A stretch of DNA of 64,000 nucleotides from Tahibacter aquaticus (GTDB taxonomy: Bacteria > Pseudomonadota > Gammaproteobacteria > Xanthomonadales > Rhodanobacteraceae): contig NZ_SNZH01000024.1 in the NCBI RefSeq assembly GCF_004363655.1, positions 1-64,000 on the forward strand, read 5' to 3'. Positions 3,732-31,980 of the stretch are shown here, piece after piece. The notes under the pieces are model-generated. The model saw only the letters and a program-made list of their open reading frames with translations, searched no databases and was not told the origin of the DNA. A program made the position numbers and the translations under genes. Numbering within the stretch: position 1 is the first letter of the stretch; each line of letters opens with the position of its first letter.

Positions 3732-3767
3732 CGACCGCCGCGTTTCCCTTTCCTACGGAGAACTTTC

Positions 3768-4387: not shown

Positions 4388-4415
4388 CACCAGGGAAGCC
4401 CGCCTGTGCGCCGTG

Positions 4416-4910: not shown

Positions 4911-4994
4911 GAAAATGCTCCGCTGAACGAGCGCGCAAGCGCGTCAACGATCCCCAGCGGCGACTTCCGGTGGGCGGATCGGCTGGAACTCCTT

Positions 4995-5366
4995 TCAGAT
5001 TCCGGCGGGATTCGGGGGGCGCAGGAGTTCGATGGGACGCCGATCCAGCGGCCATGCGGGCGCGTCTGATGAGTCTGTCAATTCGGGTTCCGGCGCGTGC
5101 AGGCGCAGCACCAGTGCCAGAGCGGCCATCGGCAGGCAGCCGCAGTGACAGACGTGATCCATGCAGCACGGGGCAAACGGCGCCGGCGACTGCGGTCGCG
5201 GAGCCTCCTCAGCGCCGTGGCAGGCATGCGCGGCTCGCGGACTCGGTGCGCCCAGAGCACTGGAGCGGCCACTGGCTCCCATAGTGCCGGTCAATACCAG
5301 CATCAGACTCAGCAGGCTCCGCCATAACAGGCCTCGCCATACCAGGGAAAGTCGCGCATGCCTCAT
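4995..5366 (-). CDS. copL: CopL-family copper-binding regulatory protein
   Basis: 123 residues. A signal-like hydrophobic N-terminus (LLSLMLVLTGTMG) is followed by a His/Cys cluster (HACHG, PCCMDHVCHCGC) and a C-terminus ending RRPIELLRPP. This arrangement, with a tail close to RPPIA, is that of Xanthomonas CopL, a small Cys/His-rich protein encoded upstream of copAB and needed for copper-inducible expression. Here no copAB follows; a MerR regulator does. Start 5366 is chosen because it begins just before the signal segment; no strong ribosome-binding site is seen, and upstream ATGs in the same frame are possible. A second CopL-like gene lies at 8631. Family call is from the motif pattern. 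Confidence 0.7.
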   Translation of the reverse strand: MRHARLSLVWRGLLWRSLLSLMLVLTGTMGASGRSSALGAPSPRAAHACHGAEEAPRPQSPAPFAPCCMDHVCHCGCLPMAALALVLRLHAPEPELTDSSDAPAWPLDRRPIELLRPPNPAGI

Positions 5367-5754
5367 GGCGGTAGCGTGCGGCAGGACCGCACCTGCGGCA
5401 AGCGTTCTCATCGCCGGCGTACGCAGCCTATGCCCCATCGCCGCACGGGCCTGCGCCGCGACGACCTCTAGATATCGCCGCGCGGGTTCGGCCAACCGGT
5501 CCAGGCGTTTGACTTCCGGCCCACCGCCAGCACATGGGGCTGTGGAAAATATGTCCGCCAAAACCAAAAAGTCACGGTGGGAGTTGGTCAGCATCTACCG
5601 GACGCCTGCATCCACGATTTCTTCGACGACGGAACGCACGCCAATCGGCCGACGATGTCACCGTATTCTGACAACGGCGATGCCCTCCGCGAGAGGCCTG
5701 GAGGGTCATATCGGCGAACGAAGCCATCGATTGTGCTTTCGTCGCCGAGGGCGG
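5367..5754. other. Intergenic region upstream of copL, no gene
   Basis: About 390 bases between copL and the stop of the GDCCVFC gene, both on the minus strand. No frame reads as protein. It should carry the copL promoter, but no MerR-type dyad with a 19-20 base spacer was found in it. Confidence 0.4.
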
Positions 5755-9099: not shown

Positions 9100-10419
9100 A
9101 TGTCAGTACGGACACGGGCGCGACCGCGCGTCCTGTGGCTGGCGGTGTCGGCAAGCGCTTGCTTGTCGGTCGCCGTGGCCGCTGCCCCCACGGAATCAGT
9201 TTCCCCCTTTGCCGCCGCGCCGCCCGAGGCGGTGACGCAAGCCCCGCCGGCACTTACCCAGGCGCTGCGCGAGGTCTGGGCGCGCAACCCGGCGGTGCAG
9301 GCCGCGGAGGCGAAAGCCGCCGCCGCTGAAGCCCGCTCGCAGGCGGCCGCGCGGCCGCTGTACAACCCCGAGATCGAGGTCGCGGCTGAGCGCGCCGACG
9401 TCAATACGCGCAGCGTGGGCCTGAGTCAGACCATCGACTGGTCGGGCAAGCGCCGCGCCCGCGTCGGCGTCGGGACGGCCGAATGGCGCGCGGCCGAGGC
9501 CGAACGGGATCAAATTCGGCAAGACATCGGCCTGCAGTGGCTGAGCGGGTGTGCCGCCTATCAGGTGGCGACCGAACAGGTCAGCCTTGGCAACGAACGC
9601 GTGCGGATCCTCGGCCAATTCGCGAGCCTGGCGCAGCGGCGATTCACCGCCGGCGATATTCCCTCACTGGAACGCGACCTGGCGGAGCTGGCCTTGCAGG
9701 AGGCCCGCGCGCAGCAGGCCGAGTTGCTGGCGGATCAGGCGCAGGCGCGCCGCACCTTGGCTGCGGTCGGCGGCGACGCGACCGCGCTGCCGGAGCTGCC
9801 TCGCGCGTTGCCGCCGGAAGCGCAAGTCCCGGTCGCGATCAGCCTCATCGACGCGCTGCCCGCGCTGCGACAGGTGCGCGCGGAGTCTGAGGCTGCACAA
9901 GCACGGATCACTGTCGCCGAACGCGAGCGGCGGGCCGATCCAACCGTCAGTGTCAGCACCGGCCGCGTCACGGACGGCCCGCTGCGCGACAACCTGCTCG
10001 GCGTCACATTGCGCATCCCGCTGTTCGTGCGCAACAGCTACCGCGCCGAAGTCACGGCCGCACGGGCGGATGCGGATCAAGCTGAAGCCGCCGTGCGCGA
10101 TCGGCAACTGCGGGCGACGGCCGAAGCCAATGAGGCCGGTGCCGCCTACAACGCGATGCGCGATGCCTGGCTCCAATGGGAAGCCAGCCGGGCCAGCCGC
10201 GTCGCCGATCGCGCCGCGTTACTGCAGCGTCTGTGGGAAGCGGGCGAACTGAGCACCGCCGACTACCTCGTGCAGCTCAAGCAAAGCATCGATACCGAAC
10301 TCACCGCGACGGGCCTGCGTGCCCGCGTATGGCAGGCGTGGGCTGACTGGCTTGCCGCCACGGGCCACTTGGCGCCGTGGCTAGGCGCTGCCCTCACGTC
10401 CCCGACCGATAAGGAATGA
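9100..10419 (+). CDS. czcC: Outer-membrane efflux protein, CzcC/CusC type
   Basis: 439 residues. Signal peptide at about 1-29, then two repeats of long helices typical of the TolC family (residues 55-235 and 245-425) that form the trans-periplasmic channel. It serves as the outer-membrane duct of the RND pump encoded just downstream. Start 9100 has GGAG 5-9 bases upstream and begins directly before the signal; an upstream in-frame start would add a non-signal tail. Four bases separate it from the adaptor gene. The symbol is used at family level; substrate (Zn, Cd, Co, Ni or Cu) is not determined by this subunit. Confidence 0.82.
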   Translation: MSVRTRARPRVLWLAVSASACLSVAVAAAPTESVSPFAAAPPEAVTQAPPALTQALREVWARNPAVQAAEAKAAAAEARSQAAARPLYNPEIEVAAERADVNTRSVGLSQTIDWSGKRRARVGVGTAEWRAAEAERDQIRQDIGLQWLSGCAAYQVATEQVSLGNERVRILGQFASLAQRRFTAGDIPSLERDLAELALQEARAQQAELLADQAQARRTLAAVGGDATALPELPRALPPEAQVPVAISLIDALPALRQVRAESEAAQARITVAERERRADPTVSVSTGRVTDGPLRDNLLGVTLRIPLFVRNSYRAEVTAARADADQAEAAVRDRQLRATAEANEAGAAYNAMRDAWLQWEASRASRVADRAALLQRLWEAGELSTADYLVQLKQSIDTELTATGLRARVWQAWADWLAATGHLAPWLGAALTSPTDKE

Positions 10420-10423
10420 ACCG

Positions 10424-11560
10424 ATGACACGACACTGGATACTGGCCCTCGCGTTGGCGGGACTGAGTTGCACCGTTCTGGCCGAGGAACCGAAGGCCAA
10501 GAGCGAAGCGCCCGGCAAGGAACAAGGCGAGGAACACGCCGAAGAAAGCCCGCTGGCGATCAACGCGGCGACCCAAAAACAACTGGGCATCGCGACCGCG
10601 GTGGCCGAGTTACGCACGTTGGAGGAGGAGATCAAGGCCCCCGGCGAGGTCAAAGCCAACGCCTATGCCACGACATTGGTATCCCCGCGCATCCCCGCGC
10701 AGATCGTGCGCCGACACAAAAAACTGGGTGACGAAATCAAAGCCGGAGAGACGCTGGTCAGTCTCTCCAGCGTCGAGGTCGCCGAAGCCCAGGGCGCATA
10801 CATCGTTGCCGAGCGGGAATGGCAGCGCGTGCAGGCGCTGGGCGCCGAAGCCGTCTCAGGCAAACGCTTTACCGAATCGCAGGTCGCGCGCGACCAAGCG
10901 CGAGCGAAACTGCGCGCGTATGGCATCGGCGACGGCGAAATCGCTTCGCTGCTCAAGCAAGGATCGGCGCGCGCCAGCGGCGAATTCTCGTTGGTCGCCC
11001 CACAAGCCGGCCGAATCACGTCCGACGATTTTATCGTTGGCGAACGCGTCGAGCCGGGCAAAGTCCTGTTCACGATCGTCGACGAAGCGACCGTGTGGGT
11101 GGAGGCGCAGCTCGCGCCGTCGGCCGCCGAACGTGTCGTGGCCGGCGCGGCCGTTCGCGTGATCGCACACACGCAAACGCTGCCCGGCAAAGTCGTCCAG
11201 CTGTCGCACCGCACCCAGGAAGGTTCGCGCACGTCGCCGGCGCGCATCGAGGTCGCCAACGACGGTGACCTGCTGCACACAGGTGAATTTGTGGAGGCGT
11301 ATATCGCGACCGCGAGCACGACCAAGGCGCTCGCGATACCCACCGAGGCCATCGTCCAACTGCAGGGACAACCCAGCGTCTTCGTCGCGGAAGAGCCGGA
11401 ACACTTCGAAACGTTGTCGATCACGCTCGGCGAGGTGCGCGGCGCCTGGACCGTTGTCACCGGCGGCCTCGAACCCGGCACGACCATTGCCGTGAAAGGT
11501 GCCTACGCCCTCAAAGCGCGGTTGCTGAAATCCGCGCTAGGAGAAGGTCATGGTCATTGA
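10424..11560 (+). CDS. czcB: RND periplasmic adaptor, CzcB/CusB type
   Basis: 378 residues. Signal peptide at 1-20 (ending LAEE), a charged linker, then the adaptor order: beta-barrel/lipoyl halves flanking a hairpin (residues about 70-190), and a C-terminal membrane-proximal domain. PRIPAQIVRRHKKLGDEIKAGE is the first lipoyl half and GEFSLVAPQAGRI the second. The protein links the inner-membrane pump to the outer-membrane duct and in this family can pass metal to the pump. A His-tailed terminus (GEGHGH) could bind metal. It sits between the duct and pump genes, 30 bases before the latter. Confidence 0.85.
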   Translation: MTRHWILALALAGLSCTVLAEEPKAKSEAPGKEQGEEHAEESPLAINAATQKQLGIATAVAELRTLEEEIKAPGEVKANAYATTLVSPRIPAQIVRRHKKLGDEIKAGETLVSLSSVEVAEAQGAYIVAEREWQRVQALGAEAVSGKRFTESQVARDQARAKLRAYGIGDGEIASLLKQGSARASGEFSLVAPQAGRITSDDFIVGERVEPGKVLFTIVDEATVWVEAQLAPSAAERVVAGAAVRVIAHTQTLPGKVVQLSHRTQEGSRTSPARIEVANDGDLLHTGEFVEAYIATASTTKALAIPTEAIVQLQGQPSVFVAEEPEHFETLSITLGEVRGAWTVVTGGLEPGTTIAVKGAYALKARLLKSALGEGHGH

Positions 11561-11590
11561 CGTTCGCCATCCCGACCGCGGAGGCGCGCG

Positions 11591-14500
11591 ATGCTAAACG
11601 GTCTCGTTGAACTCTCGCTGCGTTACAAAGTACTCGTCCTGATCAGCTTCGTGGTGCTCGCGTTCTTGGGTTACCGCGCCGTGCGCACGGTACCGATCGA
11701 CGCGTTTCCCGATGTCACGCCAGCACAGGTGAACATCTATACCGAATCGCCAGGACTCGCGGCCGAAGACGTCGAGCAGCTACTGACGTTCCCAGTCGAG
11801 TCCGCGATGGCGGGCCTGCCCAAGGTGCAGGAAATCCGCTCAGTCAGCCTGTTCGGTCTGTCCTACGTGTCGGTGTATTTCGCCGACGACATGGAGATCT
11901 ATTTCGCCCGGCAGCTCGTCAACGAGCGTCTGCAGGAAGTCGGCGATCGCCTGCCGGCCGGCTACGGCCGTCCGGAGATGGGTCCGAACGCGTCGGGTCT
12001 GGGCCAGGTGCTCTGGTACACGATCGAGCGCGCGGACGCCAAGCTCAAGGACAAGATCACCGACATGGACCTGCGCACGCTGCAGGACTGGACCGTGCGC
12101 CTGATGCTGCGCACGGCGCCCGGTGTCGATGACGTGACCTCCTGGGGCGGCGGCGAACGCCAGTTCCAGGTGCAGATCGATCCGTTGAAGCTGATCAAGC
12201 ACCAGCTCGGCTTCAAGCAGGTCATCGAGGCGTTGGAAGCCAACAACGGTCAGGTCGGCGGCAACTTCATCGACGTCGGCCGGGAGCAGTACCTGGTGCG
12301 CGGCCTGGGCCTGGTCAAGAACGCGCAGGACATCGGCAACATCGTGCTCAAGAGCGAGGACGGTACGCCCGTCTACGTGCGCGATGTCGCCACCGTCGTG
12401 CCGGGGCCGGCGCCGCGCTTCGGCGCGGTCACGCGCGATGGCGAGGAAGTCGTGCTGGGAATGGCGCTCGCCCGCATCGGCGAGAACGCCAAGAACGTGG
12501 TCGAAGCGGTCAAGGGCAAGCTCGACACCGTCCGCACCGCGCTGCCCGAAGGTGTGGTACTCAAGCCCATCTACGAGCGCACGGATCTGGTCAACAAAGC
12601 GGTCAGCACCGCTGTGCGCGCCCTGGTCGAAGGCTCGATCCTGGTCGCCGTCATCCTGTTCCTGTTCCTCGGCGAATTGCGCTCCGCCGTGGTGGTGATT
12701 GTCGCCTTGCCGATGGCGATGCTGATCGCGTTCATCTGCATGGGCGAGGTCGGCATGTCGGCCAACCTGATGTCGCTGGCGGGCTTGGCGATCGGCATCG
12801 GCATGATGGTCGACGGCGCGGTCGTGATGGTCGAGAACGTCTTCCGGCTGATGGCCGAGCGCCACGCGCACGGCGAGCGCGTCGACAAGACCGCGACCGT
12901 ATTGACAGCGGCACGCGAAGTGGCCAATCCGATCGCGTTCGCGATCGGCATCATCGTCGTCGTGTTTCTACCGCTCTTCAGCCTCGAAGGACTCGAAGGC
13001 AAGCTGTTCAAACCGATGGCGATCACGATCAGCTTCGCGATGGTGGGTTCCCTGCTGCTGTCGTTGACACTGATTCCGGTGCTGGCCTCGATGATCCTGA
13101 AGCCCAAGGAAGAGAAAGACACTTGGCTCGTCGCCCGGCTCAAGCGCGTTTATGCCCCGGTGTTGAACTGGGCGCTCGCGCGCAAGAAAGTGACGCTCGG
13201 TATCGCCAGCGCCGCGTTGCTCGGCAGCCTCGCGCTCTTTCCGTTCCTGGGCAAGGAGTTCATGCCGCAGCTGCAGGAAGGCTCGATCATGTGGCGCGTG
13301 ACCTCGATCCCGTCGACCTCGCTCGACGAATCCATCGCGGTGTCGAAGAAGATCGCGGACGCCTTCAAGCAATTTCCCGAAGTGGAAACGACGCTCGCGA
13401 TGATCGGCCGCGCCGAGAAAGGCGAAACTGCCGATGTGAACTACATGGAAATCTATACGGCGCTCAAGCCGCCGGAGACCTGGACCACGAAACGCGACAT
13501 CAAACAGCTCGAAGAAGCGATGCAGGAGACGCTGGAACAGGTCGTGCCGAACACCGTGCCGAGCTTCACCCAGCCGATCCAGATGCGCGTCGAAGAGCTC
13601 ATTTCCGGCGTGCGCGCCACGCTGGCGCTGAAGCTCTACGGCGAGGACCTGGTCGAGCTTGATCGGCAGAGCCAGACCTTGAAGGCGGTGCTGTCGAAGG
13701 TGCCGGGTGTGGCCGATCTGTCGCTCGAGGCCAACGTCGGCAAGCCGCAGATCAAGGTCAGCGTGAACCGCGATGCGTTGGCCCGCTACGGGCTCAATGC
13801 CGAAGACGTGCTGACCGTCGTGCGCAACGGCATCGGCGGCGAGCCGGTGTCCACGTTGCTCGATGGGGTCAAGCGTTTCGACATCGCGGTCCGTCTGGAA
13901 GATGCGTCGAAGGCATCGGTGTCGGCGATCGAGCAGATCCCCTTGCGCACGGCGAGTGGCGCGATCGTGCCGCTCGGTCAGGTGGCCGAAGTGACGACGG
14001 CGGAAGGCTACTCGTTCGTGCGCCGCGAGCAGTTGCAACGCTACGCCGTGATCCAGATGGACGTGCGCGGCCGTGACATCGACGGCTTTGTCCAGGAAGC
14101 CAATGCGGCCATCGCGCAGCAGGTGAAGCTGCCGGCCGGCTACTGGATCGAATGGGGCGGCGCGTTCGCCAACCAGCAGCGTGCGCTGGCCAAGCTCGCG
14201 CTGATCGTGCCGGTCACGATCTTCTTCATCTTCGTCCTGCTCTATACCGCGTTCAATTCGGTGCGCTACGCCGGGCTGATTCTGGCCAACGTGCCGTTCG
14301 CGACCATCGGCGGCATTCTGGCGTTGGCGATCACCCAGCAGTACCTGTCGGTGCCCTCGGCGATCGGTTTCATCGCGGTGTTCGGCGTTGCGATGTTGAA
14401 CGGCATCGTGCTCGTGAGCTTCTTGAACGAGCAGCGCGAACGCGGGCTCTCGATCCGCGAAGCCGTGGTGCAAGGTACCGCGCTGCGATTGCGACCCGTG

Positions 14501-21875: not shown

Positions 21876-22346
21876 ATGAAGATCAGCGAGGCCGCCGCCG
21901 CCAGCGGCTGCCACCTCGAAACGATCCGCTACTACGAGCGTATTGGGCTGCTATCCAAGGCCGCCCGCCGCGACAACGGATATCGCGTCTACACCCACGC
22001 CGAGGTGGAACGGCTGCGCTTCATCACGCGGGGTCGCGAGCTCGGATTCAGCCTCGAGGAAATCCAGAGCCTACTGGCATTGGCCGAGCAGACCGACATG
22101 CCCTGCGCCGATGTCGACCGCATGGCACGCCAGCACCTGGCCGATATCCAGGGCCGCATTCAAGCATTGCAACGCATGGCCCAGGAACTCGCGCGCACCA
22201 TCGAGGGCTGCGCCGGCGGCGCCCGGGCCCGCTGCGCGATCCTGGGTGACCTGCAGGCGCCGGTGGATCGCACCGCGCCAAATACCTCCTCGGCGCCGAA
22301 AGGCGGCCGACGCGCCGCGGCCGGGCGACCGGGTGCCGGCCCATGA
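21876..22346 (+). CDS. MerR-family divalent-metal regulator
   Basis: 156 residues. DNA-binding winged helix (KISEAAAASGCHLETIRYYE), dimer helix, then Cys77, Cys112 and Cys120. Cys77 marks sensors of divalent ions (ZntR, CadR, PbrR); copper sensors have Ser there. The 112-120 loop of eight residues is the same spacing as CueR, so the metal site is a mixture of the two types. The C-terminal 30 residues are low-complexity. It is divergent from the hydroxylase operon and its operator, 5 bases upstream, recurs at 17517. Its TGA overlaps the ATG of a truncated recombinase. No strong ribosome-binding site is seen because the operator fills the leader. Confidence 0.82.
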   Translation: MKISEAAAASGCHLETIRYYERIGLLSKAARRDNGYRVYTHAEVERLRFITRGRELGFSLEEIQSLLALAEQTDMPCADVDRMARQHLADIQGRIQALQRMAQELARTIEGCAGGARARCAILGDLQAPVDRTAPNTSSAPKGGRRAAAGRPGAGP

Positions 22347-22435
22347 GCCGCGTCGCGCAGTACCTTGAGGCCGCCACCCGCGCCAACACGCGCCGCAGCT
22401 GTCGTTGCTCGCTTACGTTGGCACTAGCGCGGTGA
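22343..22435 (+). pseudogene. Truncated start of a tyrosine recombinase/integrase
   Basis: 30 codons beginning SRVAQYLEAATRANTRRS (22343-22399), a typical opening of the SAM-like N-terminal domain of phage-type integrases, in which the next residues are normally a Tyr and the rest of a helix. The match stops dead after RRS, in front of short repeats, and a stop follows at 22433. So this is the 5' stub of a recombinase cut at or near its own repeat region. It overlaps the merR-type stop by ATGA. Confidence 0.6.
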
Positions 22436-22464
22436 CCCTGTCATGCGCGGTAACGCTGTCAATT
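22404..22464 (+). repeat. Tandem degenerate 18-20-base repeats at the recombinase break
   Basis: Three consecutive units are seen: CGCTTACGTTGGCACTAG (22410-22427), CGCGGTGACCCTGTCATG (22428-22445) and CGCGGTAACGCTGTCAATT (22446-22464). Their core is TNACNCTGTCA or close to it. Related units recur at 42791-42935. They start within a few bases of where the recombinase reading frame breaks, as expected for recombinase binding or crossover sites. Confidence 0.55.
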
Positions 22465-22629
22465 CCCGTCAGCAGCATCGATTGCTGTCCTGCGCCCGAT
22501 CCTCGGCGCCAACCGCGAGAACTTAGAGCCACAACAAGCCCCCCATTGGCGTCTCCACGGTCTGCACGACCAAGGCACTGCCGTCCACTGAATCAGACAT
22601 GGCCTCGGCCGCTTTCCCCCACGCTCCGA

Positions 22630-22710
22630 AAATTTACTAAATTTCGTTGCAATTCCGGGCATGCATCTATACGCTGTATTTCCTACACGATTTCGAAGAT
22701 TTACTAAATC
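22630..22710. promoter_or_regulatory. Paired palindromic operators before the XRE gene
   Basis: Two near-identical odd palindromes, AAATTTACTAAATTT (22630-22644) and GATTTACTAAATC (22698-22710), share ATTTACTAAAT and have centres 67 bases apart. The second ends 19 bases before the XRE start codon. A likely use is autoregulation by the XRE protein, with the promoter lying between or across the sites. This stretch is much richer in AT than its surroundings. Confidence 0.6.
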
Positions 22711-22729
22711 AGCGCGCCGGGAGACTACT

Positions 22730-23698
22730 ATGGACAGCGAGGCACTCGTGCAGTTGGCGTTGGACGCCCAGTCGTGCAATCAAAAGGAGCTGGGCCTGCG
22801 TCTTGGCGTCTCACCAACTCAGATCAGCAAATGGAAGAAGGGTGAGCACATGTCTTTCGAAATGCGGGAGAAGCTATCCCAGCTTGCCAATATCGGCAGC
22901 ATGTGCCCTCAGTTCGTGCTCTGGGCTGGCTCGCTGGAAGACGCCCGGAAGTGGGCGCGGCTGATCGACTACCTTGCGGAACGGGCTGTTGGGGAGGCCG
23001 AAACCGGGTACGACACCTATCCTCTAACGGACGAGCCGGACCTTCGGGAGCTTCTGTGCTCATCGACGTTCCACACGCTAAAAGAAATGGGCGTAGCCAT
23101 TCCCAAACAGTTTCCCGCTACGCTGGATGTCGAGGTCGATGATGAGGATAACGATTCTGTTGACCGTTACGAAGCACTCCTCGAGAGCAACCCGTACTCC
23201 AGTACGATCGACAGGCTGTATCGCTCGCTGAACGACGTATACGGATTCTACGCGGCATACGTGTCCGGGCTGGTCGATGATGATGCACTGGATTTGCTAG
23301 GCACCCCTGCGGAGAACATCGAGCCGTGTTTGCTGTCGCTGGCAGCGTGCAAGATTGAGGTAGATCCGGCGTTCGCTCCGAACTTCGCAGCGTTCAATAG
23401 AGCGACAAAAGAAAACTACGAGATCTGGCTGAACATCGTCAAAGACAGGGCGTTCAGTGCTGGAAAGCCGCTGAGAGCCGAGCTTCTCAACCTGGTTTAC
23501 GATTCGGGTGACGAACTAGGCCACGAAGCGGAAGCGGAAAGTCTCGGCTTCAATGCGACACGATTGCATCCGGATGTATACATGAACGAGCTGCTGGTCG
23601 GCATGCGCCTCATCCATCAGGTCCTGCCGGCGATCCTAGAAAAACTGGGAATCGAGGGCGAGTTCGCCTTGGATAGGTCCAAGCTTCAACTTGGGTAG
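22730..23698 (+). CDS. XRE-type DNA-binding protein of the conflict system
   Basis: 322 residues. The N-terminal 60 residues are an XRE helix-turn-helix (NQKELGLRLGVSPTQISKWKKGE). The remaining 260 residues, acidic and helical, are not recognised and might sense a ligand or bind a partner. GGGAG precedes the ATG at 22730; an upstream in-frame start would lie across the operator. Two matching palindromes upstream suggest that it controls its own expression. It converges on the three-gene ATPase/nuclease cassette, with only 81 bases between stops, and has the same lower GC content, so it likely belongs to the same acquired unit. Confidence 0.7.
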   Translation: MDSEALVQLALDAQSCNQKELGLRLGVSPTQISKWKKGEHMSFEMREKLSQLANIGSMCPQFVLWAGSLEDARKWARLIDYLAERAVGEAETGYDTYPLTDEPDLRELLCSSTFHTLKEMGVAIPKQFPATLDVEVDDEDNDSVDRYEALLESNPYSSTIDRLYRSLNDVYGFYAAYVSGLVDDDALDLLGTPAENIEPCLLSLAACKIEVDPAFAPNFAAFNRATKENYEIWLNIVKDRAFSAGKPLRAELLNLVYDSGDELGHEAEAESLGFNATRLHPDVYMNELLVGMRLIHQVLPAILEKLGIEGEFALDRSKLQLG

Positions 23699-23779
23699 CA
23701 CTCGCGAGGCGACTCGTTTTCCACGCCGACCGAGGGTGTGTGGTTGATGCTATTCGTGATCGCAGCTATCTACGGTAGA

Positions 23780-24871
23780 TCACTTCGAGGAGCTTCTCCG
23801 GCCCCTCGGTGAAGCTTGTCGTTTGCTCCTAGCCAATGGTCGATGTTCGAGCATCGGCGAGATTTCCAAAGCAACGTGCAACTTCTTTGCCGCAGCTGCC
23901 ACTTCGCGAGGGAGCTTCTGTTTCGTCTTCCTGGCATCGACCAACCAAGCAAAGACCGCATCTGTGTCGTACCGACGATAGCTATTTGCCTGCTCGACGC
24001 CCTCGATCGCCCATTCCGCGTTGGCATGTTGAGACTTTGACGCACTCAAAACTTTCAGTTCAATCATCGTTGTGACTGTACGATAAACCGAGCCATGCGC
24101 TGCCTCGCGAGCGACCCGCAAGTCTGCGCGGCCACCCGGCGCCTGCGGTTCCTGATCGACAAATGCGACGCTGCACGAGAACGTCGCCTTCAGATGCACA
24201 AGCATGTAGGACTGAATGTGACTCTCGGGCTGTAACGACAGCTTGAACGGTTTCCCGCGAAGCCAAATCTGACGCGCAACTGGACACGTCGGATACAACA
24301 GGTTTTCGTCGGCGAATGCGCGAAGCGAATCAGCAATAGATTTAGCGGTGATGGTGGGCGACAGCGCATTTACCATCAAGTTATTGGGGCTGTTGCACCA
24401 TTCGACAATGTTCTGCCCCGGCAAGTGGACGAGAATCCGCGATTGACCGAACACTGCCACGACAAAACATTGATCCTCAAGAAGAGTATCAGCGACGAAT
24501 CCGAAAGCTTCGCTGATGTTGCTCCAACCAGTTCGAACACGACGCATGGTCGCGAGATTCTCGTTGCAGACTATCACTCCGGCCGACGAGCTACGATCAA
24601 GCGCGTGCCTGAAAAGTGTTTCTCTGCGCCGCGCCGCGGAATCTGCAATCTTCACGCCCGGTTCGAGTAGTGGATGCTCAGCATAGACGAGAATCGAAAC
24701 CGCATCCTCACCCACCTGCCCTGCAGCCAATTGCTGCTGGTTCGCCAGCAACCATTGCTTTTGCCACGCGATCACCTCCTGCACGAATCGCAACGGCGGC
24801 TGGCCGTCCGCTGACATGAGCCAAACGCCCAGTACTGTCTGAAGCTCATCTTGTCCCAGTGTCGCCGTCAT
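23780..24871 (-). CDS. PD-(D/E)XK nuclease-type effector of a three-component system
   Basis: 363 residues. The C-terminal third holds a PD-(D/E)XK nuclease core: Asp250 in GGRADLRV, then Glu271-Leu-Lys273 on the following strand (MIELKVL) and Gln294 in the next helix (EQANSYRR), the usual order of metal-binding and catalytic residues. The N-terminal 220 residues are unassigned and may contact the partner proteins. It starts at the last base of the middle-component stop (TAATG), so the genes are translationally coupled. Position and order (ATPase, middle component, nuclease) resemble ABC-three-component conflict systems in which the last gene is the effector. Nuclease activity on invader nucleic acid is inferred. 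Confidence 0.65.
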   Translation of the reverse strand: MTATLGQDELQTVLGVWLMSADGQPPLRFVQEVIAWQKQWLLANQQQLAAGQVGEDAVSILVYAEHPLLEPGVKIADSAARRRETLFRHALDRSSSAGVIVCNENLATMRRVRTGWSNISEAFGFVADTLLEDQCFVVAVFGQSRILVHLPGQNIVEWCNSPNNLMVNALSPTITAKSIADSLRAFADENLLYPTCPVARQIWLRGKPFKLSLQPESHIQSYMLVHLKATFSCSVAFVDQEPQAPGGRADLRVAREAAHGSVYRTVTTMIELKVLSASKSQHANAEWAIEGVEQANSYRRYDTDAVFAWLVDARKTKQKLPREVAAAAKKLHVALEISPMLEHRPLARSKRQASPRGRRSSSK

Positions 24872-25521
24872 TAGGCGGCGGCCCGAGTGGCGAGAAGGCG
24901 TTGATAGGCTGTCAGTGCGTCGAGGCGACGCGATGTCGCGAGGTCATTGAGATAGCGGTCTATCGTATGAAGGCCGACAACTGTAGGTGTCTGCTCATCG
25001 TCTGTACCAACCGTTGACTCGCCTCTTTCGGAAGCAGTCTGGTACGTCAAATCCTGAAACAGAGCACCATCGAGCTTGGACTCTTCGGTTCGGGCTGCCG
25101 CAAGACATAGCTCAAGTAGAAATTGGTATAGCCGTTCGCCGAAGCTCGTCTGTCGCAGTTTTCGGACCACAAGCAAGCCTTGTCGCCGGAGCCGCGATTC
25201 GCCTTCGAATTGCAGTTCGTTCCGAGCGGGATACGCTTTGAACTGACGAATCTCGATGAGTCCGCTCATGATCAGCGCACCCAGCGCAAAATGGGCCATT
25301 CGATAGTACGGTCCCTGCTCGGTGCGGCGAGCTCGGAATCGTAGCGGTGCGATGTCATAGAAACGCGAGGACGCGAATGAAACGAACAGCAAAGCATGGA
25401 GGCGTCGACGGGACAGAGGGCCGAGGCCCGCCGCATCACTGGCAGCGAACAGCAAAAGTAGCCAGCGCGAAAAGTGCAAGCCTTCGTAGTCTTCCTTCCG
25501 CACTGGAATTGGCTTAGCCAT
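24871..25521 (-). CDS. Middle-component-like protein of a three-component system
   Basis: 216 residues, basic and mostly helical, with a winged-helix-like stretch (YRMAHFALGALIMSGLIEI, then strand-forming FKAYPARNELQF). Size, position between an SMC/ABC-type ATPase and a nuclease gene, and this helix-wing look resemble the middle components of ABC-3C systems, which are thought to bridge ATPase and effector. No catalytic motif is visible. It overlaps the ATPase gene by 8 bases and the nuclease gene by 1. The family assignment is by context more than by motif. Confidence 0.5.
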   Translation of the reverse strand: MAKPIPVRKEDYEGLHFSRWLLLLFAASDAAGLGPLSRRRLHALLFVSFASSRFYDIAPLRFRARRTEQGPYYRMAHFALGALIMSGLIEIRQFKAYPARNELQFEGESRLRRQGLLVVRKLRQTSFGERLYQFLLELCLAAARTEESKLDGALFQDLTYQTASERGESTVGTDDEQTPTVVGLHTIDRYLNDLATSRRLDALTAYQRLLATRAAA

Positions 25522-26443
25522 CAGCGTACTTCCCTACTTCATCGTCAAACAGCGCCTGTGCCGTTTTGTCCTTGAGGACGCCTGGTTGCGCTGTCAGTTT
25601 CATTAGGTTGACCAAGTGGCCGCCCGACTTACGTCGAGAACCGGCGGGCCTGCCCAGCAAATGTCCAATCATCGTCGTTCCGTTGAGATTGGATGTGGCG
25701 ATTACGCGCCGCTGCTTGCTCGAACCTCGCGTGGCGAAATCGCGTATCAGGTCAGCGGCACGCTCCATGAACCACGTGTCGAGACTGGCTTCCGGAGTTT
25801 CAACGATGAGCGTCATCGCGCCGTCATCGGTGACCATGTCGAGTACGGCCAGTCGGAACGCCAAGTCGAGAAATTCCTTCTGAGATTCAGAGACGCTGGT
25901 TTCACTTGTGCGAACTTGCTGAGTCGCATGGGTACCGGAGGTCATTGCCACGCGGAACGTCGGGATATTGACTTTTGACACACCGGTAGCCAATGAGAAT
26001 GGGCTGTTGCGCTCGAATCGCACGCTAACGCTTTCTTGGAGGAAGCGCTCGGCATAACGAGCGATACGATCAGCTAGAGACTCGCGAATGCGCTCAATTG
26101 ATTCCTGCGCGACCCCGACCGCCTTACGGTAGTTTTCAGCGAGCGCCTTGCGCTCCTTGTCGAGCTTGCCTAGGTCCAGTTCTTCTCGGGTGATCTCGTC
26201 CTGCAACGGAGACGACACCGTGCCGGGCAATTGCGCAGCAAGGTAAAGATGCTCCTCTGAGAGCTGCTGCACGCTGGTCAGCAACGTGCGAAGCAAATCC
26301 TGCTGCGTTCCGACGGCGGCCTCGATATGCGAGTACGCTTCTTTGAGTGCCTCGTGGATAGCTATCGCCTCTTCCAGCGTCTTCTCTCGCTTGCGTACTT
26401 CGGCGACCTTGATGGACTCGACATTCTTGGTCGACGTTGGCAT
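25514..26443 (-). CDS. C-terminal half of an SMC/ABC-type ATPase, N-terminal half missing
   Basis: 309 residues. Residues 10-140 form a coiled coil (KREKTLEEAIAIHEALKE onward). The rest is the C-terminal lobe of an ABC/SMC/RecN-type ATPase: signature-like SVSESQKEFLDLAFRLA (183-199), Walker B strand and D-loop LIVETPEASLD (212-222), and a following strand RRVIATSN. In canonical ABC proteins Walker B is DEP; here it is ETPE. No Walker A is present in this protein. Upstream, in another frame, 26460-26521 still reads as coiled-coil (LRSLTEQLEQVQRRVSFAIA), and then the sequence changes to the leader of a plus-strand gene. So the front of the ATPase appears lost, unless a split partner lies elsewhere. 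Confidence 0.65.
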   Translation of the reverse strand: MPTSTKNVESIKVAEVRKREKTLEEAIAIHEALKEAYSHIEAAVGTQQDLLRTLLTSVQQLSEEHLYLAAQLPGTVSSPLQDEITREELDLGKLDKERKALAENYRKAVGVAQESIERIRESLADRIARYAERFLQESVSVRFERNSPFSLATGVSKVNIPTFRVAMTSGTHATQQVRTSETSVSESQKEFLDLAFRLAVLDMVTDDGAMTLIVETPEASLDTWFMERAADLIRDFATRGSSKQRRVIATSNLNGTTMIGHLLGRPAGSRRKSGGHLVNLMKLTAQPGVLKDKTAQALFDDEVGKYADG

Positions 26444-26596
26444 CTTGCTATGGCAAACGAAACTCGGCGCTGGACCTGCTCAAGTTGCTCGGTCAACGAA
26501 CGAAGTGCGTCAAACTGCCCCACCCCGCCCGTCCCCGAAGAAAATGCGGGCGAGCCGGCGCGGTAACATCCCCGCACTGACAAGAGGCCATACCGC

Positions 26597-26985
26597 ATGA
26601 TCCCCGACACTGTCACTCGCTGGCATCGCCTTGTGAACGCGCGCGATGCCGCCGGACTCGATGCGCTGCTGGCCGAGGGGTGTTCCATTCGCCCGTCGTG
26701 CACACGCCGCAGGCCGGCAAGGCAGTGCCCCGGGGTTACCTGCCCGCGGCGCTGGCCGTGATCATCAACGACTCGTTTCGCTATCAGCGCGAGCTGTACG
26801 GCGAAAACGACGCGGTGCCGGAGTTCCAAGTCGAACTCGATGGCATCGCGGTCAACGGCGTGGACATGATCCACTGGAATGCCGAGGGACGCATCACAGA
26901 GTTCAAGGTGATGCTGCGCCCGCTCAAAGCCGTCACGCTGATTCACGAGAAAATGGCGGCCATGCTGCAGGCGGCGCGGCGATGA
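26597..26985 (+). pseudogene. NTF2-like/SnoaL family gene with a frameshift
   Basis: From ATG 26597 the frame reads WHRLVNARDAAGLDALLAEG, the first helices of an NTF2-like (SnoaL) domain. The fold continues one frame away from about 26680 as VFHSPVVHTPQAGKAV and on to 26985. The shift lies in a run of four G at 26671-26674, where one base seems missing. The complete protein would be about 130 residues, normal for the family, which are small cone-shaped enzymes or binding proteins of diverse function. Either a true pseudogene or a homopolymer sequencing error. Confidence 0.7.
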
Positions 26986-27019
26986 TAAAGCTGACCGCCC
27001 CCGTTTCCGATGTAGTTCG

Positions 27020-29512
27020 CTAGCCTGCAAGCAGCCGCACGGCCAGCCACGCGGGCAGCCCCAGGTAGAAAGCCACGCGGCTCAGCATCGTCAGCGCGCG
27101 GCGCACCGCGCGTGCGCGCGCCGGCCAGGGCAGCATCGCTACATGGACGGCTTCAACGACACTGCGCAGCGCAGCGGCGAACATCATCAGGCCGATGGAC
27201 CAGGCACCCCACCACGCCAGCAGTCCTGTGAGCCACGCCGCGAGTCCGTAGGTGTAGTACTCGCCGAAGGTGCCGCCGAACGCGATGTGCTGATGCAGCC
27301 GAAATGCCGGCAGCGCCAGCAGCAGCGGGAACGCGACGAACTTGACCAGCGGGTGGTCGAGCCGTGGCCACCCCGCGACGGCACGCGTCGTTGCGTAGTC
27401 TGCCCTGCGTGCCGAGCCTGCGCTGGCCGGGAGCAGCGGTGATTCGGCGTCGTTCAGCACGCGCAGCAGCGCTTCAACATCGGCAATAGCGATGCCGGGT
27501 GCGAAACGCGCGCCGGAAGCGAACTGTAGATCCACGCCCGTGCCAGGCAATGGTATGCGCCACACGCGGACGTCGACGATGCGATCCAGCGGAACCTCGA
27601 TACGCTGGTGACGCTGTTGCAATACGAGCATTCCGCCATCGACCCGCACGCGCGCCGCGAAGGCGCGCTGAATGCCCCATGCCGCGATCGCCGGTAGCAG
27701 CGTTACGCCGATGAAGATCTGCAGCTGCACCAGCGAGTTCACCTGCAGGCCGTCTCGCAGCAGCATCCGCAAGGCCAGCCAGAGCAGGCCGGCACCGGCG
27801 CAGACGCGCAGTAGTGCGGCGGCGATGCGCCAACCCGGCGTGAGCAGGGCAACGACGATAGCGCTCGCAGGCTTCGTAGCTGCGGCGGCTACGGCCGCAG
27901 TCGATTTGGCATTCGCGCTGTGCGTGCGCCGCACACGCACGATGGATGCCATCGCGAGCAGCAGCAGGAACGTACCCGCTGCGGCGCCCACCCAATCGCC
28001 CCAGCGCACCATCAGCGTTGCCGGTGGATCGCGCAACGGCACCTCGCCGGCGAGTACGGCGCGATCGCCGAATTTCGTGCTCGCCAGCACGGCCCCGGTG
28101 GGATCGACGAATGCGCTGAGGCCGTTGGTGGTGACGCGCAGCTGCGGCAGGCGGGTTTCGATGCTGCGGAATGCCGCCACGGCCAGATGCAGGCGCGCAC
28201 CGAGGGGGGACGCGGTGAACCAGGAATCGTTGGAAAGGCCGACGATGGCCTGTGCGCCCAGACGCGCGCCGTCCAGTGCGAGTCCCGGCTGCACGTCGTC
28301 GCGGCAGATCAGCGGCACCACATTGAGTTCGCGCCCGTCGGCGGCACGCAGCAGCATCACGCGCGCGCCGGAGCCGGGTTGCCAGCTGCCGGCCCAGGGT
28401 AACCAACTGCGCAGCCGCGGACCGTCCAGCCAAGCGGGAACGTGTTCGGTGAACGGAAACAGAAATGTCTTGCGGTAGGTGCCGATGGCGCCGCTGCCAG
28501 GTGCAAGGAATGTGGCCGCGTTGTATTCGCCCGCGGCATCGCGATCGTAGGTGCCGAATACCAGGGCAACGTTGGCGCTGGCGGCGAAGTCGAGTATCTC
28601 GCGGTCCAGCGCCGCGCCGTCTTCGCTGCGCGGCTGTCCGAAGGTGGTCGGATAGACCGTCTCCGACCAGAGCACGGCGTCGGCCGCGTGATGTTCGATG
28701 GCGGCGCGCGACAACGCGAAATGCGTGTCCAGCACATCGCGTACAACGGCATAGGTGCCGCGTTCGCGCCGCTGGCCTTCGTAATCGACCATGCTCGCCT
28801 GAACCATGGCGACGCGCATCGCGTCGGCGGGCGCGCTCAGCACCGTTTCGAGCGTGGCAAGACGCAGCACGCCGTAGCCAGCCATCAGCAGCGGTAGCGC
28901 GAGCGCCAGTGCCAGCGGCCGTAGCAGGTGGCGCAGGCCTTCGCGCCGCTGCGCCACGGCCTGGGCCAGCGCCTCGTTGACGAGGATCAGCACGACGCTG
29001 ATGCCGGCGGCGCCGCCGAGGTCTGCCACCTGTCGCAACCACGCCGCGGGCGCAAGGCCGTGGCCCAGCGTGTCGCCGAGGAGTTTCGGCCAAAGCCATT
29101 CGACAGCGACCCAGGCGCAGGCGCCAGCAAGCCCACTTACCCAGGCGCTGTGGTGGTGCCGCCGGGCGAGATGGCGCACCACCGCAAAGACGATCACCTG
29201 CGGTTGCAGCAACGGCGCCAATACACACAGCATCAACACGGCGGAAAACGTGCCGATACCGGTATAGGTGGCTAGCGCAGCGCCGAACCACAAGAACGCC
29301 GCCACGATGTACGCGACGCTCATCAGCCATCCGCTGAGCAGCGTGTCGGTGAACGTACGCGTGGCATCCAGCGCGAGCAGCCACGGCAGCAGCAGCACGA
29401 AGCCCAGCACCCAGGCGTCGCCGCCGCGTGCATACAGCGCCAGCAGCGACGCACTCGCGATCACGCCGGCGAGCGCGCGCCAGAGCCCGCGATATTTGGT
29501 AAAGGCGAACAC
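27020..29512 (-). CDS. lnt: Apolipoprotein N-acyltransferase with long C-terminal extension
   Basis: 830 residues against about 510 for typical Lnt. N-terminal membrane helices (1-225) precede a nitrilase-type domain with the triad Glu284 (WSETVYP), Lys348 (YRKTFLFPFTEHVP) and Cys403 (PLICRDD), matching Glu267/Lys335/Cys387 of E. coli Lnt, which N-acylates lipoproteins at the periplasmic face. A further helix closes the Lnt unit near 530. The extra 290 residues add several membrane helices and a beta-rich segment (IEVPLDRIVDVRVW) resembling a PH-type domain. Start is GTG 29512; an upstream GTG at 29522 is in another frame. A housekeeping lnt normally lacks this tail, so this may be a paralogue. 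Confidence 0.8.
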   Translation of the reverse strand: MFAFTKYRGLWRALAGVIASASLLALYARGGDAWVLGFVLLLPWLLALDATRTFTDTLLSGWLMSVAYIVAAFLWFGAALATYTGIGTFSAVLMLCVLAPLLQPQVIVFAVVRHLARRHHHSAWVSGLAGACAWVAVEWLWPKLLGDTLGHGLAPAAWLRQVADLGGAAGISVVLILVNEALAQAVAQRREGLRHLLRPLALALALPLLMAGYGVLRLATLETVLSAPADAMRVAMVQASMVDYEGQRRERGTYAVVRDVLDTHFALSRAAIEHHAADAVLWSETVYPTTFGQPRSEDGAALDREILDFAASANVALVFGTYDRDAAGEYNAATFLAPGSGAIGTYRKTFLFPFTEHVPAWLDGPRLRSWLPWAGSWQPGSGARVMLLRAADGRELNVVPLICRDDVQPGLALDGARLGAQAIVGLSNDSWFTASPLGARLHLAVAAFRSIETRLPQLRVTTNGLSAFVDPTGAVLASTKFGDRAVLAGEVPLRDPPATLMVRWGDWVGAAAGTFLLLLAMASIVRVRRTHSANAKSTAAVAAAATKPASAIVVALLTPGWRIAAALLRVCAGAGLLWLALRMLLRDGLQVNSLVQLQIFIGVTLLPAIAAWGIQRAFAARVRVDGGMLVLQQRHQRIEVPLDRIVDVRVWRIPLPGTGVDLQFASGARFAPGIAIADVEALLRVLNDAESPLLPASAGSARRADYATTRAVAGWPRLDHPLVKFVAFPLLLALPAFRLHQHIAFGGTFGEYYTYGLAAWLTGLLAWWGAWSIGLMMFAAALRSVVEAVHVAMLPWPARARAVRRALTMLSRVAFYLGLPAWLAVRLLAG

Positions 29513-29553
29513 TACCGGTCACCCATCAGCGCGAATGCATCAGGACAGGCGCC

Positions 29554-30303
29554 TCAAGGCCGCCGCTCCCCGGCAGGAGGAATGGTGATTTCGCGGATCG
29601 GCAGTCCCGGCGGCGCCATGTCGGCGGGGACGACCCGGTCGTCCGGAATCGTGATTTGCCGGCCCGATGCATCCACAAACACGCCGTCGGGCGAGAACAT
29701 GAGGATGGGTTCCAGCAGCTCACCCTCGTCGGTCACCTGGTGATGACGCACGTAGCCGGGCGGCAGCTCGAAATCCGCGGGCACCGCGAGGCCGACGAGC
29801 GGCGGACTCGTACCGGGAGGATTGAAGGCGCCGATACCGGTGTGATCGCCGCTGTCGTGCAGGGCCTGGATCACCTCGGTCATGGTCGGCGCAGGCTCTG
29901 TCGGCGAGAGGTAGGTCGCAACGTCGTTGGGATCGCCACTGGGCCGATTGTCGGGGTTGGGGTCGGGGTCGGACGCGACAGGCATGGTTTGCATGGAAGC
30001 ATGGCGTTGGGGCGTCCGCACCGGTGCCGTGGACGGGCGCAGCGGCGCAGCACGTGGTGCCTCGGCGGAGGTGGCGTCGGCTGGCGCCCTGCCGGCGTTG
30101 CCGGCCCGTGCCATCGCCGCGCGCTGCGCTGGCGGTGTTTGCGACGAGAACAGCAGACTCGCGATGCCCGTCGCGATAACGACGGCGGCAAGCATGATCA
30201 TGGCGGTTGCCGCCGACAACCACGAACGGCGTTCGCGCACGACGCGCACGCCATCGCCGCCCATTGCGGACGGCGTGGCGTGATCATGGCCGGATACGCT
30301 CAC
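29554..30303 (-). CDS. Single-pass membrane protein with Pro/Ala-rich periplasmic part
   Basis: About 249 residues. A short cytoplasmic segment is followed by one hydrophobic helix (SAATAMIMLAAVVIATGIAS), then a Pro/Ala/Thr-rich stretch to about residue 150, and a C-terminal region with PPGYVRHHQVTDEGELLEPI and PDGVFVDASGRQITIPDD. No family was recognised. Start GTG 30303 is followed by an alternative ATG at 30264; neither has a strong ribosome-binding site. It lies 41 bases upstream of lnt on the same strand, and 19 bases downstream of the SGNH hydrolase stop, so the three may be one transcript. Confidence 0.6.
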   Translation of the reverse strand: MSVSGHDHATPSAMGGDGVRVVRERRSWLSAATAMIMLAAVVIATGIASLLFSSQTPPAQRAAMARAGNAGRAPADATSAEAPRAAPLRPSTAPVRTPQRHASMQTMPVASDPDPNPDNRPSGDPNDVATYLSPTEPAPTMTEVIQALHDSGDHTGIGAFNPPGTSPPLVGLAVPADFELPPGYVRHHQVTDEGELLEPILMFSPDGVFVDASGRQITIPDDRVVPADMAPPGLPIREITIPPAGERRP

Positions 30304-30322
30304 CGGCGCGTTTCCCGGTCGA

Positions 30323-31411
30323 TCAGGGCGTTGGCGGGCTATAGGTCGAAAGCGACCAGCCCATGCGTTCGTGCCCAAAATTGTTCCAAATTGGACTCTT
30401 GCCGCCGCTGAAGCTGGTGTAGCGTGGCGCCCCGCTGCCGGTCGATCCGCCGAACAGGCCGGCACTCACTGTGCCGCCGGTGTAGGTCGGGTGCACGTCG
30501 TCGGACTGGATGTAGTCGTAGCTGCTCGACGAACTCGCAAAATGCGTGTTCGCATCCCGCAGCGTGGGGCGAAGCGTGGTGGTGATACGCGTCACGTAGC
30601 TCGCCTCGCTTTCTCCGGTCACGTAGCGCAGCGCGTCGGAGTCGACCTGGCCGTCGCCGTTGCTGTCGTAGTCCGCACCCATGTATTGGGCGAAGCTGTC
30701 GGCGCATTTGAACCCCTTCTGGCGCGCGTAGTCGCACATCCAATAGTTCATCGTCACCAGCGCGGGCAGGAAGCGATCGCGCAGGTTTACCGTGGCGCCG
30801 GTTGTCGCATCGCGGCACGAGCTCTGCACGTTGTCCGCGTTGTAACCCGGGTAGTACAGGTTCGCGATGATCTTGAGCCGGGTATTGGCATGGGCGTTCG
30901 CGTTGATGTAGTCCATCGACTGCGCGACGTAGCTCTTGCAGGTGTTCACCGCGTTGTTCAGCGCGCTGTAGTCGCAGGTACCGGTCTGCGACTTGAAAGC
31001 GGAACGCGCTTGCAGGCCGTCGTTGCCGCACATCTCGAAAGTCACGACGCGGGTAGAGGCGTCCTGCATGTACGAGCGGTCCGCCACGATCTTGTTCTGG
31101 TAGACGTCAGATGCTACGGCGCCCGACTTGGCGCGACGGATGTTCTCGACGTCCGCGTTCCACAGCGCAGAGAGGTATTCCGAATCGACGGTTGGCGCGG
31201 AATAGCGGGCCGCATTGCTGATGGAGCCGTTGTAGCCCGCGTAGATCGAATCACCGTAGGCCACGACGCGATATTTCGCGCTCGTTCCGGCCCGATCGAC
31301 AGTCCAGGAGACGTTCTGATTGAGCGTATTGCCCATGGCCTGGGCGCTCAGTATCAGCAAGGCGACAGCCGGCAGCCACCGGCGGGTAGCGCCGTGGAAT
31401 CGGTTAGACAT
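30323..31411 (-). CDS. Secreted SGNH/GDSL hydrolase
   Basis: 362 residues. Signal peptide at 1-27. The SGNH blocks are present: GDS at 53-55 (nucleophile Ser55), GND near 130 (CGNDG) and DDVHP near 318 (catalytic Asp and His). These enzymes hydrolyse esters of lipids, acylated sugars or similar substrates. A block-II Gly is likely in the KSGA stretch. Six or more cysteines fit an exported protein. Start 31411 is set by the signal peptide and GGGGAT upstream; the reading frame extends further but reads as non-coding. Substrate unknown. Confidence 0.82.
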   Translation of the reverse strand: MSNRFHGATRRWLPAVALLILSAQAMGNTLNQNVSWTVDRAGTSAKYRVVAYGDSIYAGYNGSISNAARYSAPTVDSEYLSALWNADVENIRRAKSGAVASDVYQNKIVADRSYMQDASTRVVTFEMCGNDGLQARSAFKSQTGTCDYSALNNAVNTCKSYVAQSMDYINANAHANTRLKIIANLYYPGYNADNVQSSCRDATTGATVNLRDRFLPALVTMNYWMCDYARQKGFKCADSFAQYMGADYDSNGDGQVDSDALRYVTGESEASYVTRITTTLRPTLRDANTHFASSSSSYDYIQSDDVHPTYTGGTVSAGLFGGSTGSGAPRYTSFSGGKSPIWNNFGHERMGWSLSTYSPPTP

Positions 31412-31980
31412 GGTTATCCCCGCGAGGTCAGTGTGCAGAAAAGACGCGGAAACCGCACGGTTTCCACGATCCCGACAAAACGCAACATGTGGCGCACGCC
31501 AGAACAAGGCGCCCCCTAGGCCGAGCAGAAGACTAAATGTGCGCGTTGTAGAGGTCAATACAATCGTTTGAATGACTTGCGATGCACCGCAACATAAACG
31601 GGCGACTTCAACGAGGTTAACCGGGGCTTGACGAAACGCTATTGCGGTTTCAGGACATCGATCGCGTTTGGAGCAATCACAAGCGGTGTTGAACGACTGT
31701 CCGATAACGTCTCGGCGTGTGTCGGTCAGCGTGCGCGTACGGGCAGCCATCGAGCGAGGACTGATCTGGCAGTCGCAGTCGCGGTCGAACAGCGAAGCCG
31801 AGCGCAAGTGCGGATTAGACGACGTGTCCCCGACTCCAACGACCGGGCAACGAGTCAGCACAAAGTACGAATCTCTGCGCCTCCGTCAGTCCTTCGGCAC
31901 CGACAACGCGACTTGCCGCCCCGGGCGGAAATCAGCCGGATCATGGCGCTGCACGTAGGGCGTTCAGTTGGCGTGAGACA
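31412..31980. other. Intergenic region upstream of the SGNH gene, no gene
   Basis: About 570 bases, less GC-rich than its neighbours. It should contain the leftward SGNH promoter. The right part leads into a transposase relic starting at 31981; no earlier transposase sequence could be read, so the rest of the insertion element is gone or too decayed. Confidence 0.4.

Follow-up and report, generated by a model that had tools for sequence, protein, structure and literature searches.

The window analysed here comprises the first 64,000 nucleotides of contig NZ_SNZH01000024.1 from the draft genome of Tahibacter aquaticus (G000; 7,269,264 bases in 82 contigs, completeness 100) and carries a minus-strand cassette of three genes in the order ATPase, middle protein, nuclease. 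A preliminary description, made from the letters of the window and their open reading frames (ORFs), had reported three overlapping leftward genes of these kinds, and their coordinates, order and motifs were all borne out. Successive ORFs overlap by 8 bp (ATPase and middle protein) and by 1 bp (middle protein and nuclease). The three genes and the two short segments at the upstream end of the ATPase gene are as follows (aa, amino acids):

25514-26443, minus strand: C-terminal part of an SMC/Rad50-like ABC ATPase, 309 aa; second coiled-coil half, VSESQKE signature, Walker B VETPEASLD
24871-25521, minus strand: middle protein, 216 aa
23780-24871, minus strand: nuclease, 363 aa; C-terminal PD-(D/E)XK domain, N-terminal domain without a family
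26444-26461, minus strand: break-point remnant, 18 bp encoding FVCHSK (second apex CxxC), in frame upstream of the ATG
26462-26519, no strand: DNA at the break, 58 bp, holding a coiled-coil-like open frame unrelated to the ATPase

The 309-aa ATPase part displays an ETPE-type Walker B and the VSESQKE signature, and Walker A is absent. An intact cassette in the same-genus genome G012 (locus L002), the nearest relative, was used as the reference. Its ATPase is a 704-aa ORF with the Walker A GINGIGKT and a tetra-cysteine coiled-coil apex (CxxC-N-CxxC), and the window protein is 79% identical to its residues 396-704. The DNA match between the two loci spans 23838-26461 and stops within the apex, at its second CxxC. 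In searches of the whole G000 assembly, the window copy was the sole match to the ATPase query; at E ≤ 0.001, the N-terminal half of the L002 ATPase found no match, and a query of 26440-26540 returned no other match. The preliminary description had proposed either a break by recombination near 26,520 or a separate N-terminal partner; our results support a recombination-type break, placed at 26,461, and the partner lost its footing, the N-terminal half being unmatched in the assembly. It had also proposed that the coiled coil continues at 26460-26521 in a different frame, which was rejected: the frame is open, but homology to L002 ends at 26461, where L002 has its CxxC-N-CxxC module and the window passes into unrelated DNA. 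No match longer than 16 nt was found between 26462-26519 and the related loci compared.

Comparison with L002 gave dN/dS ratios of 0.088, 0.092 and 0.151 for the three genes, with synonymous sites near saturation; such values relative to the nearest relative identify real genes rather than chance frames. None of the three window frames contains a premature stop, whereas in 95% of the runs of a neutral simulation with point changes only, no more than 91 substitutions (3.4% divergence) were needed for a first stop to appear. The ATPase break is therefore young, or the remaining genes are still under selection. We consider it very probable that the window locus is a broken and inert copy, in which only the 3′ part is left of a system of four genes, for a methyltransferase, an ATPase, a middle protein and a nuclease.

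The fourth gene emerged from 12 related loci: L002-L006, the five confirmed out of 85 pattern stretches in a search of contigs from 84,980 species, L005 being the locus of Diaphorobacter caeni; L027 (Burkholderia stagnalis) and L028 (Azospirillum brasilense), from plasmid records; L029, from a viral contig; L060-L062, from the ATPase-profile search (genomes G706, G712 and G775); and L063, from a search of the order sample with the window ATPase (genome G121). A DNA methyltransferase adjoins the triad in all 12, within about 1.1 kb in 11 and at 1.7 kb in L028. These methyltransferases form one family, pairwise 28-66% identical, with the motif SPPY.NSFDY[TS]D in 11/11 tabulated sequences and DPFGGSGT or DPFCGSGT in 10/11, and the methyltransferase matches the PADLOC model MTase_II at 7.5e-41. 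In L002 a 441-aa methyltransferase, encoded by an overlapping gene, stands beside the 704-aa ATPase, the middle protein and the nuclease. A 4-bp overlap between methyltransferase and nuclease genes is found in five loci, convergent in L060-L063 and head to tail in L029. The earlier reading of a three-component cassette thus stood as regards the order of the ATPase, middle protein and nuclease genes and failed as regards completeness. The methyltransferase had no match in the G000 assembly at E ≤ 0.001, and among the eight genomes of the genus it was found in G012 only. An open full-length ATPase is present in 11 of the 12 loci; the exception is L028, with an ATPase divided over two frames and a short nuclease ORF.

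At least two of the loci have a single methyltransferase flanked by two complete triads, one of type a and one of type b: L027 (678-10801) and L003/L090 from a Rhodanobacter metagenome-assembled genome, L090 being an extension of L003. The second-type ATPase was searched for in four of the five genomes of L002-L006, and a second copy was found only in that of L003. It is possible that these double triads act as paired clamps. Inspection by eye also showed the settings of several loci. On the viral contig of L029 (1047-16610), the ATPase, middle protein, nuclease and methyltransferase genes run in the same direction in the company of Mu-like genes. The plasmid-borne cassette of L028 (965-13684) adjoins TniQ-, TnsA-, TnsB- and TnsC-like genes, as in a Tn7-like element, and is another broken copy, perhaps carried as transposon cargo. 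An IS21-like istA/istB pair lies beside the intact cassette of L006 (Pseudomonas cerasi, 9401-11705). In L004 (Pseudomonas citronellolis, 2-2041), a large ORF resembling DUF499-type ATPases lies beyond the methyltransferase and possibly belongs to another defence system.

Thirteen full-length ATPases were gathered over 11 loci, each a single chain encoded by an ORF of 667-715 aa. Walker A, two apex CxxC motifs spaced by 19-20 residues, VSESQ.E and [DE][TA]PE.SLD are each present in all 13, so that related loci do encode the Walker A-bearing ATPase that the preliminary description had proposed to look for, and homologues are not always of the short 309-residue form. The position after the Walker B acid, usually the catalytic glutamate, is Thr or Ala in 13/13, as read from the motif register rather than from an alignment to LmuB. 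ABC ATPases in which this glutamate is replaced are expected to hydrolyse ATP slowly, and slow hydrolysis is therefore predicted here. PADLOC models of LmuB match 11 of the 13 ATPase sequences, with a best E value of 2e-20; other PADLOC matches were to PbeC (3e-12), mad3 (3.5e-10) and, for one sequence of the 13, a DndD model (7.9e-6). Scores of this kind can be inflated by coiled coil. The 309-aa sequence scanned singly gave weak PADLOC matches, the best being JetC at 4.4e-4, and single-sequence scans of Pfam and NCBIfam returned nothing relevant for it or for the 216-aa protein. A PDB sequence search with the ATPase profile revealed no match at E ≤ 1e-5.

The middle-protein ORFs range from 209 to 254 aa across the family. 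The preliminary description had been prepared to see the 216-residue protein fall into an unrelated family; Pfam returned nothing at E ≤ 1 for the window protein, and the best stray match among 13 aligned members is 0.0075, for one member. None of the 13 matches PADLOC at E ≤ 1, nor do they match the Pfam models of ABC-3C components, both libraries having been searched without a positive control for their content. The predicted model (pLDDT 66.6) had no PDB match in Foldseek at E ≤ 0.001 and suggests, with low confidence, a mostly helical protein with a two-stranded wing, winged-helix-like in its secondary-structure pattern only.

Regarding the nuclease, the PD-(D/E)XK domain occupies about residues 215-340, at the C-terminus, and the residues D250, E271, K273 and Q294 singled out in the preliminary description proved invariant in 14/14 aligned homologues. 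The window protein matches PF08011 (PDDEXK_9) at E 1.8e-4, below the curated cut-off, and this model matches 10 of the 14 members at E ≤ 1, the best at 6.3e-5. As for the middle protein, no match was obtained to PADLOC (0/14 at E ≤ 1) or to the ABC-3C Pfam models, again without a positive control for library content, and PDB sequence searches with either protein gave chance-level matches only. The best match of the predicted fold is MspJI, with E 2e-4 but a TM of 0.22, which at most supports the presence of a nuclease domain.

The cassette is rare. The window ATPase matches three of the 299 genomes in the order sample (G000, G012 and G121). Among 398 genomes of the phylum, where scoring in each genome was limited to three first-look candidates for the ATPase and four for the methyltransferase, the ATPase profile matches five at E ≤ 1e-20, namely G000 and four with intact copies, and the methyltransferase profile matches ten, four at E ≤ 5e-190 and six at 2e-42 to 2e-23. 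The four genomes with strong methyltransferase matches are exactly the four with an intact ATPase, and G000 alone has the ATPase without the methyltransferase. In the ATPase-profile search that yielded L060-L062, 54 of the 59 matched genomes (those other than G000, G012, G706, G712 and G775) were dropped as generic ABC matches of less than 29 bits over short N-terminal stretches. Four of the six neighbourhoods of the weaker methyltransferase matches were inspected by eye and showed no such triad; in one of them (L086) a restriction-enzyme-like gene adjoins the methyltransferase. The middle-protein profile, built for type a only, finds G000 and G012 alone among 369 genomes of the class, and plasmid searches returned the L027 and L028 loci only. 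The L006 ATPase had no match at E ≤ 1e-6 in 50,697 phage records; the viral contigs yielded one locus for the ATPase, from 95 pattern stretches, and none for the middle protein, from 53. A phage origin of the cassette was rejected, given the lack of phage-record matches and the single viral-contig locus.

Lamassu operons place the effector gene first, whereas here the ATPase gene leads and a methyltransferase is present in every locus. In a 2023 review (PMC10586767), the Lamassu effector LmuA is described as an N-terminal enzymatic domain followed by a variable C-terminal domain and is accompanied by a middle component; LmuB often carries a CPxCG hook, and its catalytic Glu is replaced by Gln, with slow hydrolysis suggested. 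Set against that account, the present family shares with Lamassu, ABC-3C and DdmABC an SMC/Rad50-like ATPase of about 650-700 aa and a nuclease effector, and appears to share a zinc-binding-type apex, the lack of a canonical catalytic Glu and a small middle component (PMC10586767). It differs from the Lamassu described there in that each chain carries a pair of CxxC motifs where Lamassu has a single CPxCG, and in that the PD-(D/E)XK domain lies at the C-terminus, not at the N-terminus as the enzymatic domain of LmuA does (PMC10586767). The family encodes an LmuB-like ATPase, of which the window protein is only a 309-aa part, and its nuclease departs from the LmuA layout of an N-terminal enzymatic and a C-terminal docking domain. 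The ABC-3C likeness put forward in the preliminary description holds for the ATPase, which resembles LmuB, and is not seen in the library matches of the middle protein and nuclease. Judged by composition, the system appears ABC-3C-like; we did not file it as Lamassu, because its middle protein and nuclease are unmatched in PADLOC, its nuclease domain is C-terminal and its apex has two CxxC motifs.

A second comparison concerns the systems of a DndD/CxC ABC ATPase with DndE, and those of PbeABCD, that include DNA methylases. As described in PMC10853773, they too bring together an SMC-like ATPase with a zinc-hook-type apex, a small partner, a methylase and a nuclease, and they too contain duplicated units in one locus; they differ in that their partner protein is DndE, a ribbon-helix-helix protein (PMC10853773). 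The PbeC models match our ATPases less well than LmuB does. The ORF lists, which were read without a dedicated search for any of these, showed no recognisable DndE, helicase or DndFGH, and the absence of PADLOC matches to the small partner (0/13) is to be read knowing that the presence of DndE models in the library was not checked. With type II restriction-modification the family shares an MTase_II-type methyltransferase, which could protect the host, and a PD-(D/E)XK nuclease; it differs in that every family locus found also encodes an ABC ATPase and a middle protein. A literature search over titles and the beginnings of abstracts, a coverage that leaves the Krishnan 2020 classification of ABC ATPases, the source for ABC-3C, outside, did not return a description of this gene set.

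The DNA around the remnant contains three further features:

26520-26985, plus strand: duplicate of a small gene, leader included, SnoaL/NTF2-like by eye, 83% identical to G000:C26:21080-21549
22401-26519, no strand: low-G+C segment with a helix-turn-helix (HTH) gene and the broken cassette, the probable extent of acquired DNA
22661-23698, plus strand: HTH protein, 345 aa; N-terminal helix-turn-helix, Pfam HTH_3 just under the cut-off, likely start at about 22730

The small-gene copy next to the break has a frame disrupted near its start and no significant Pfam match; in G301, this small gene sits on the opposite side of the 27020-31594 block. From 27000 onwards the window is collinear with the close relative G299 (94% over 4.6 kb), in which, within the 38.9 kb compared, one has to go about 28.6 kb to reach the nearest match on the left (window 22074-22400), and no cassette match was found between these shared flanks. 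This arrangement points to 22400-27000 as a variable site, holding 4.6 kb in the window and about 28.6 kb of other DNA in G299. G+C content measured per 200 bp is 0.53-0.60 from 22401 to 26600 and 0.61-0.78, mostly 0.65-0.69, in the neighbouring bins; the window cassette as a whole is at 0.56, the two flanking stretches at 0.67-0.68 and the L002 cassette at 0.66. We read the segment as probably acquired DNA, cut either on arrival or later, horizontal transfer being suggested by the low G+C. At the break, a search for repeats or a transposon gave only short two-copy matches, none convincing, and no tRNA lies nearby, the sole tRNA of the window being at 57531.

The HTH gene has the same low G+C and is convergent with the nuclease gene. 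It was rejected as a fifth component, since it was not seen beside the L002 cassette and L027 has a different HTH protein of 146 aa, and we regard it as a passenger. A direct repeat, CGAA(A/G)ATTTACTAAAT, occurs at 22627-22642 and 22694-22709 (94%, 67 bp apart), upstream of the likely HTH-gene start at about 22730, and is a candidate operator.

In the scheme that we propose, the methyltransferase of the intact system would mark host DNA. ATPase dimers would join at the tetra-cysteine apex and be loaded with the middle protein. The ATP-bound clamp would sense invading or unmodified DNA, with slow turnover because Thr or Ala stands where the usual catalytic Glu would follow Walker B, and would license the nuclease, so that the invader is cut or the cell killed. 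For the sensing, licensing and protection steps we see roughly even chances; the parts list and the motifs alone were observed. We suggest only tentatively that the intact family represents a restriction-modification class not described before. The mark of the partner methyltransferase would be read by a hydrolysis-poor SMC-like clamp and not by the nuclease, and where two divergent triads surround one methyltransferase they could serve as paired, possibly hetero-dimeric, clamps. The window copy would have followed another path: the cassette probably arrived by horizontal transfer, and recombination inside the coiled-coil apex would have removed the ATP-binding N-terminal half of the ATPase together with the methyltransferase. 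Since Walker A is missing, no ATP clamp can be expected to form and the nuclease should therefore stay off; with an ATPase unable to bind ATP and a nuclease never licensed, the cassette would be inert, and for that reason loss of the protective methyltransferase would be tolerated.

Several explanations compete for the window copy. One has the 309-aa protein working as a short form that pairs in trans with an N-terminal half encoded elsewhere, as is conceivable for split ABC systems. This seems hardly credible: the ORF does begin with an ATG, the remaining frames are open, and purifying selection is seen over their whole history, but the assembly has no match to the L002 N-terminal half at E ≤ 0.001, the 13 full-length relatives are single chains and the break cuts straight through the tetra-cysteine apex. 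Moreover, 23700-26800 has no sigma-70-like site (1.0 expected by chance), and no clear Shine-Dalgarno sequence was seen by eye before the ATG. It is very unlikely that the 26,461 junction is an assembly chimera in a strain with an intact system, even though the genome is a draft (82 contigs) and dissimilar sequences meet at the junction, since an assembly of completeness 100 would then have to lack both the N-terminal half and the methyltransferase; the disruption of the adjacent small-gene copy fits a decaying region instead. The middle protein and nuclease, with intact frames and conserved catalytic residues, might survive as a new unit of two genes with its own function, for example with the middle protein holding the nuclease, an idea that we also judge quite improbable: no locus with these two genes only was found by the type a profile in the class genomes or by the plasmid searches, and a recent break accounts equally well for the open frames. 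As for the intact system, it may be a Lamassu (ABC-3C) that stands by chance beside an ordinary type II methyltransferase. The LmuB matches, an ATPase of about 670-715 aa and three genes with the small one in the middle speak for this, yet it appears unlikely in view of the unmatched middle protein and nuclease, the C-terminal nuclease domain, the double CxxC apex and a methyltransferase of one family in 12/12 loci, overlapping the nuclease gene by 4 bp in five.

Our preferred reading, a broken and inert copy of a four-gene system, has points that count against it. A defence function is argued from composition and from the resemblance to LmuB. The junction at 26,461 is known from the draft assembly alone and may be an assembly error, and the intact frames could mean that the middle protein and nuclease still act. 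The linked pairs behind both phylum profiles come in part from all four positive genomes, and the co-occurrence that the profiles show is not independent; more independent evidence of linkage comes from G706, G712 and G775, found with a profile made without them, and from G121, all four detected by the ATPase alone and each with an adjoining methyltransferase. Finally, only about 1.3 kb separates the G012 cassette from DNA with 85% identity to window 2453-5414, a stretch on the same contig as the window cassette, and part of the neighbourhood may thus be shared by descent rather than through a separate transfer, a point weakened because the two cassettes are only 71% identical in DNA. The matching segment (L002 9966-12927) is downstream of the intact cassette in L002 and about 18 kb from the cassette in the window, and looks like a rearranged shared neighbourhood.

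Taken alone, the broken window copy illustrates the ordinary decay of a defence-type island. Because the methyltransferase and the ATPase head were lost while the nuclease frame stayed open, it also suggests that the nuclease, if expressed at all, is harmless without its ATPase. The more interesting part is where the copy leads, to a rare family whose intact members tie an SMC/Rad50-like sensor to methylation of DNA: a methyltransferase-coupled variant of ABC-3C-like systems with an inferred function, and probably a rare bacterial gene set directed against invading DNA. What Lamassu recognises was still described as poorly understood in the 2023 review (PMC10586767). A relative that carries its own methyltransferase offers a direct handle on the sparing of self DNA, since the methyltransferase mark can be mapped and removed.

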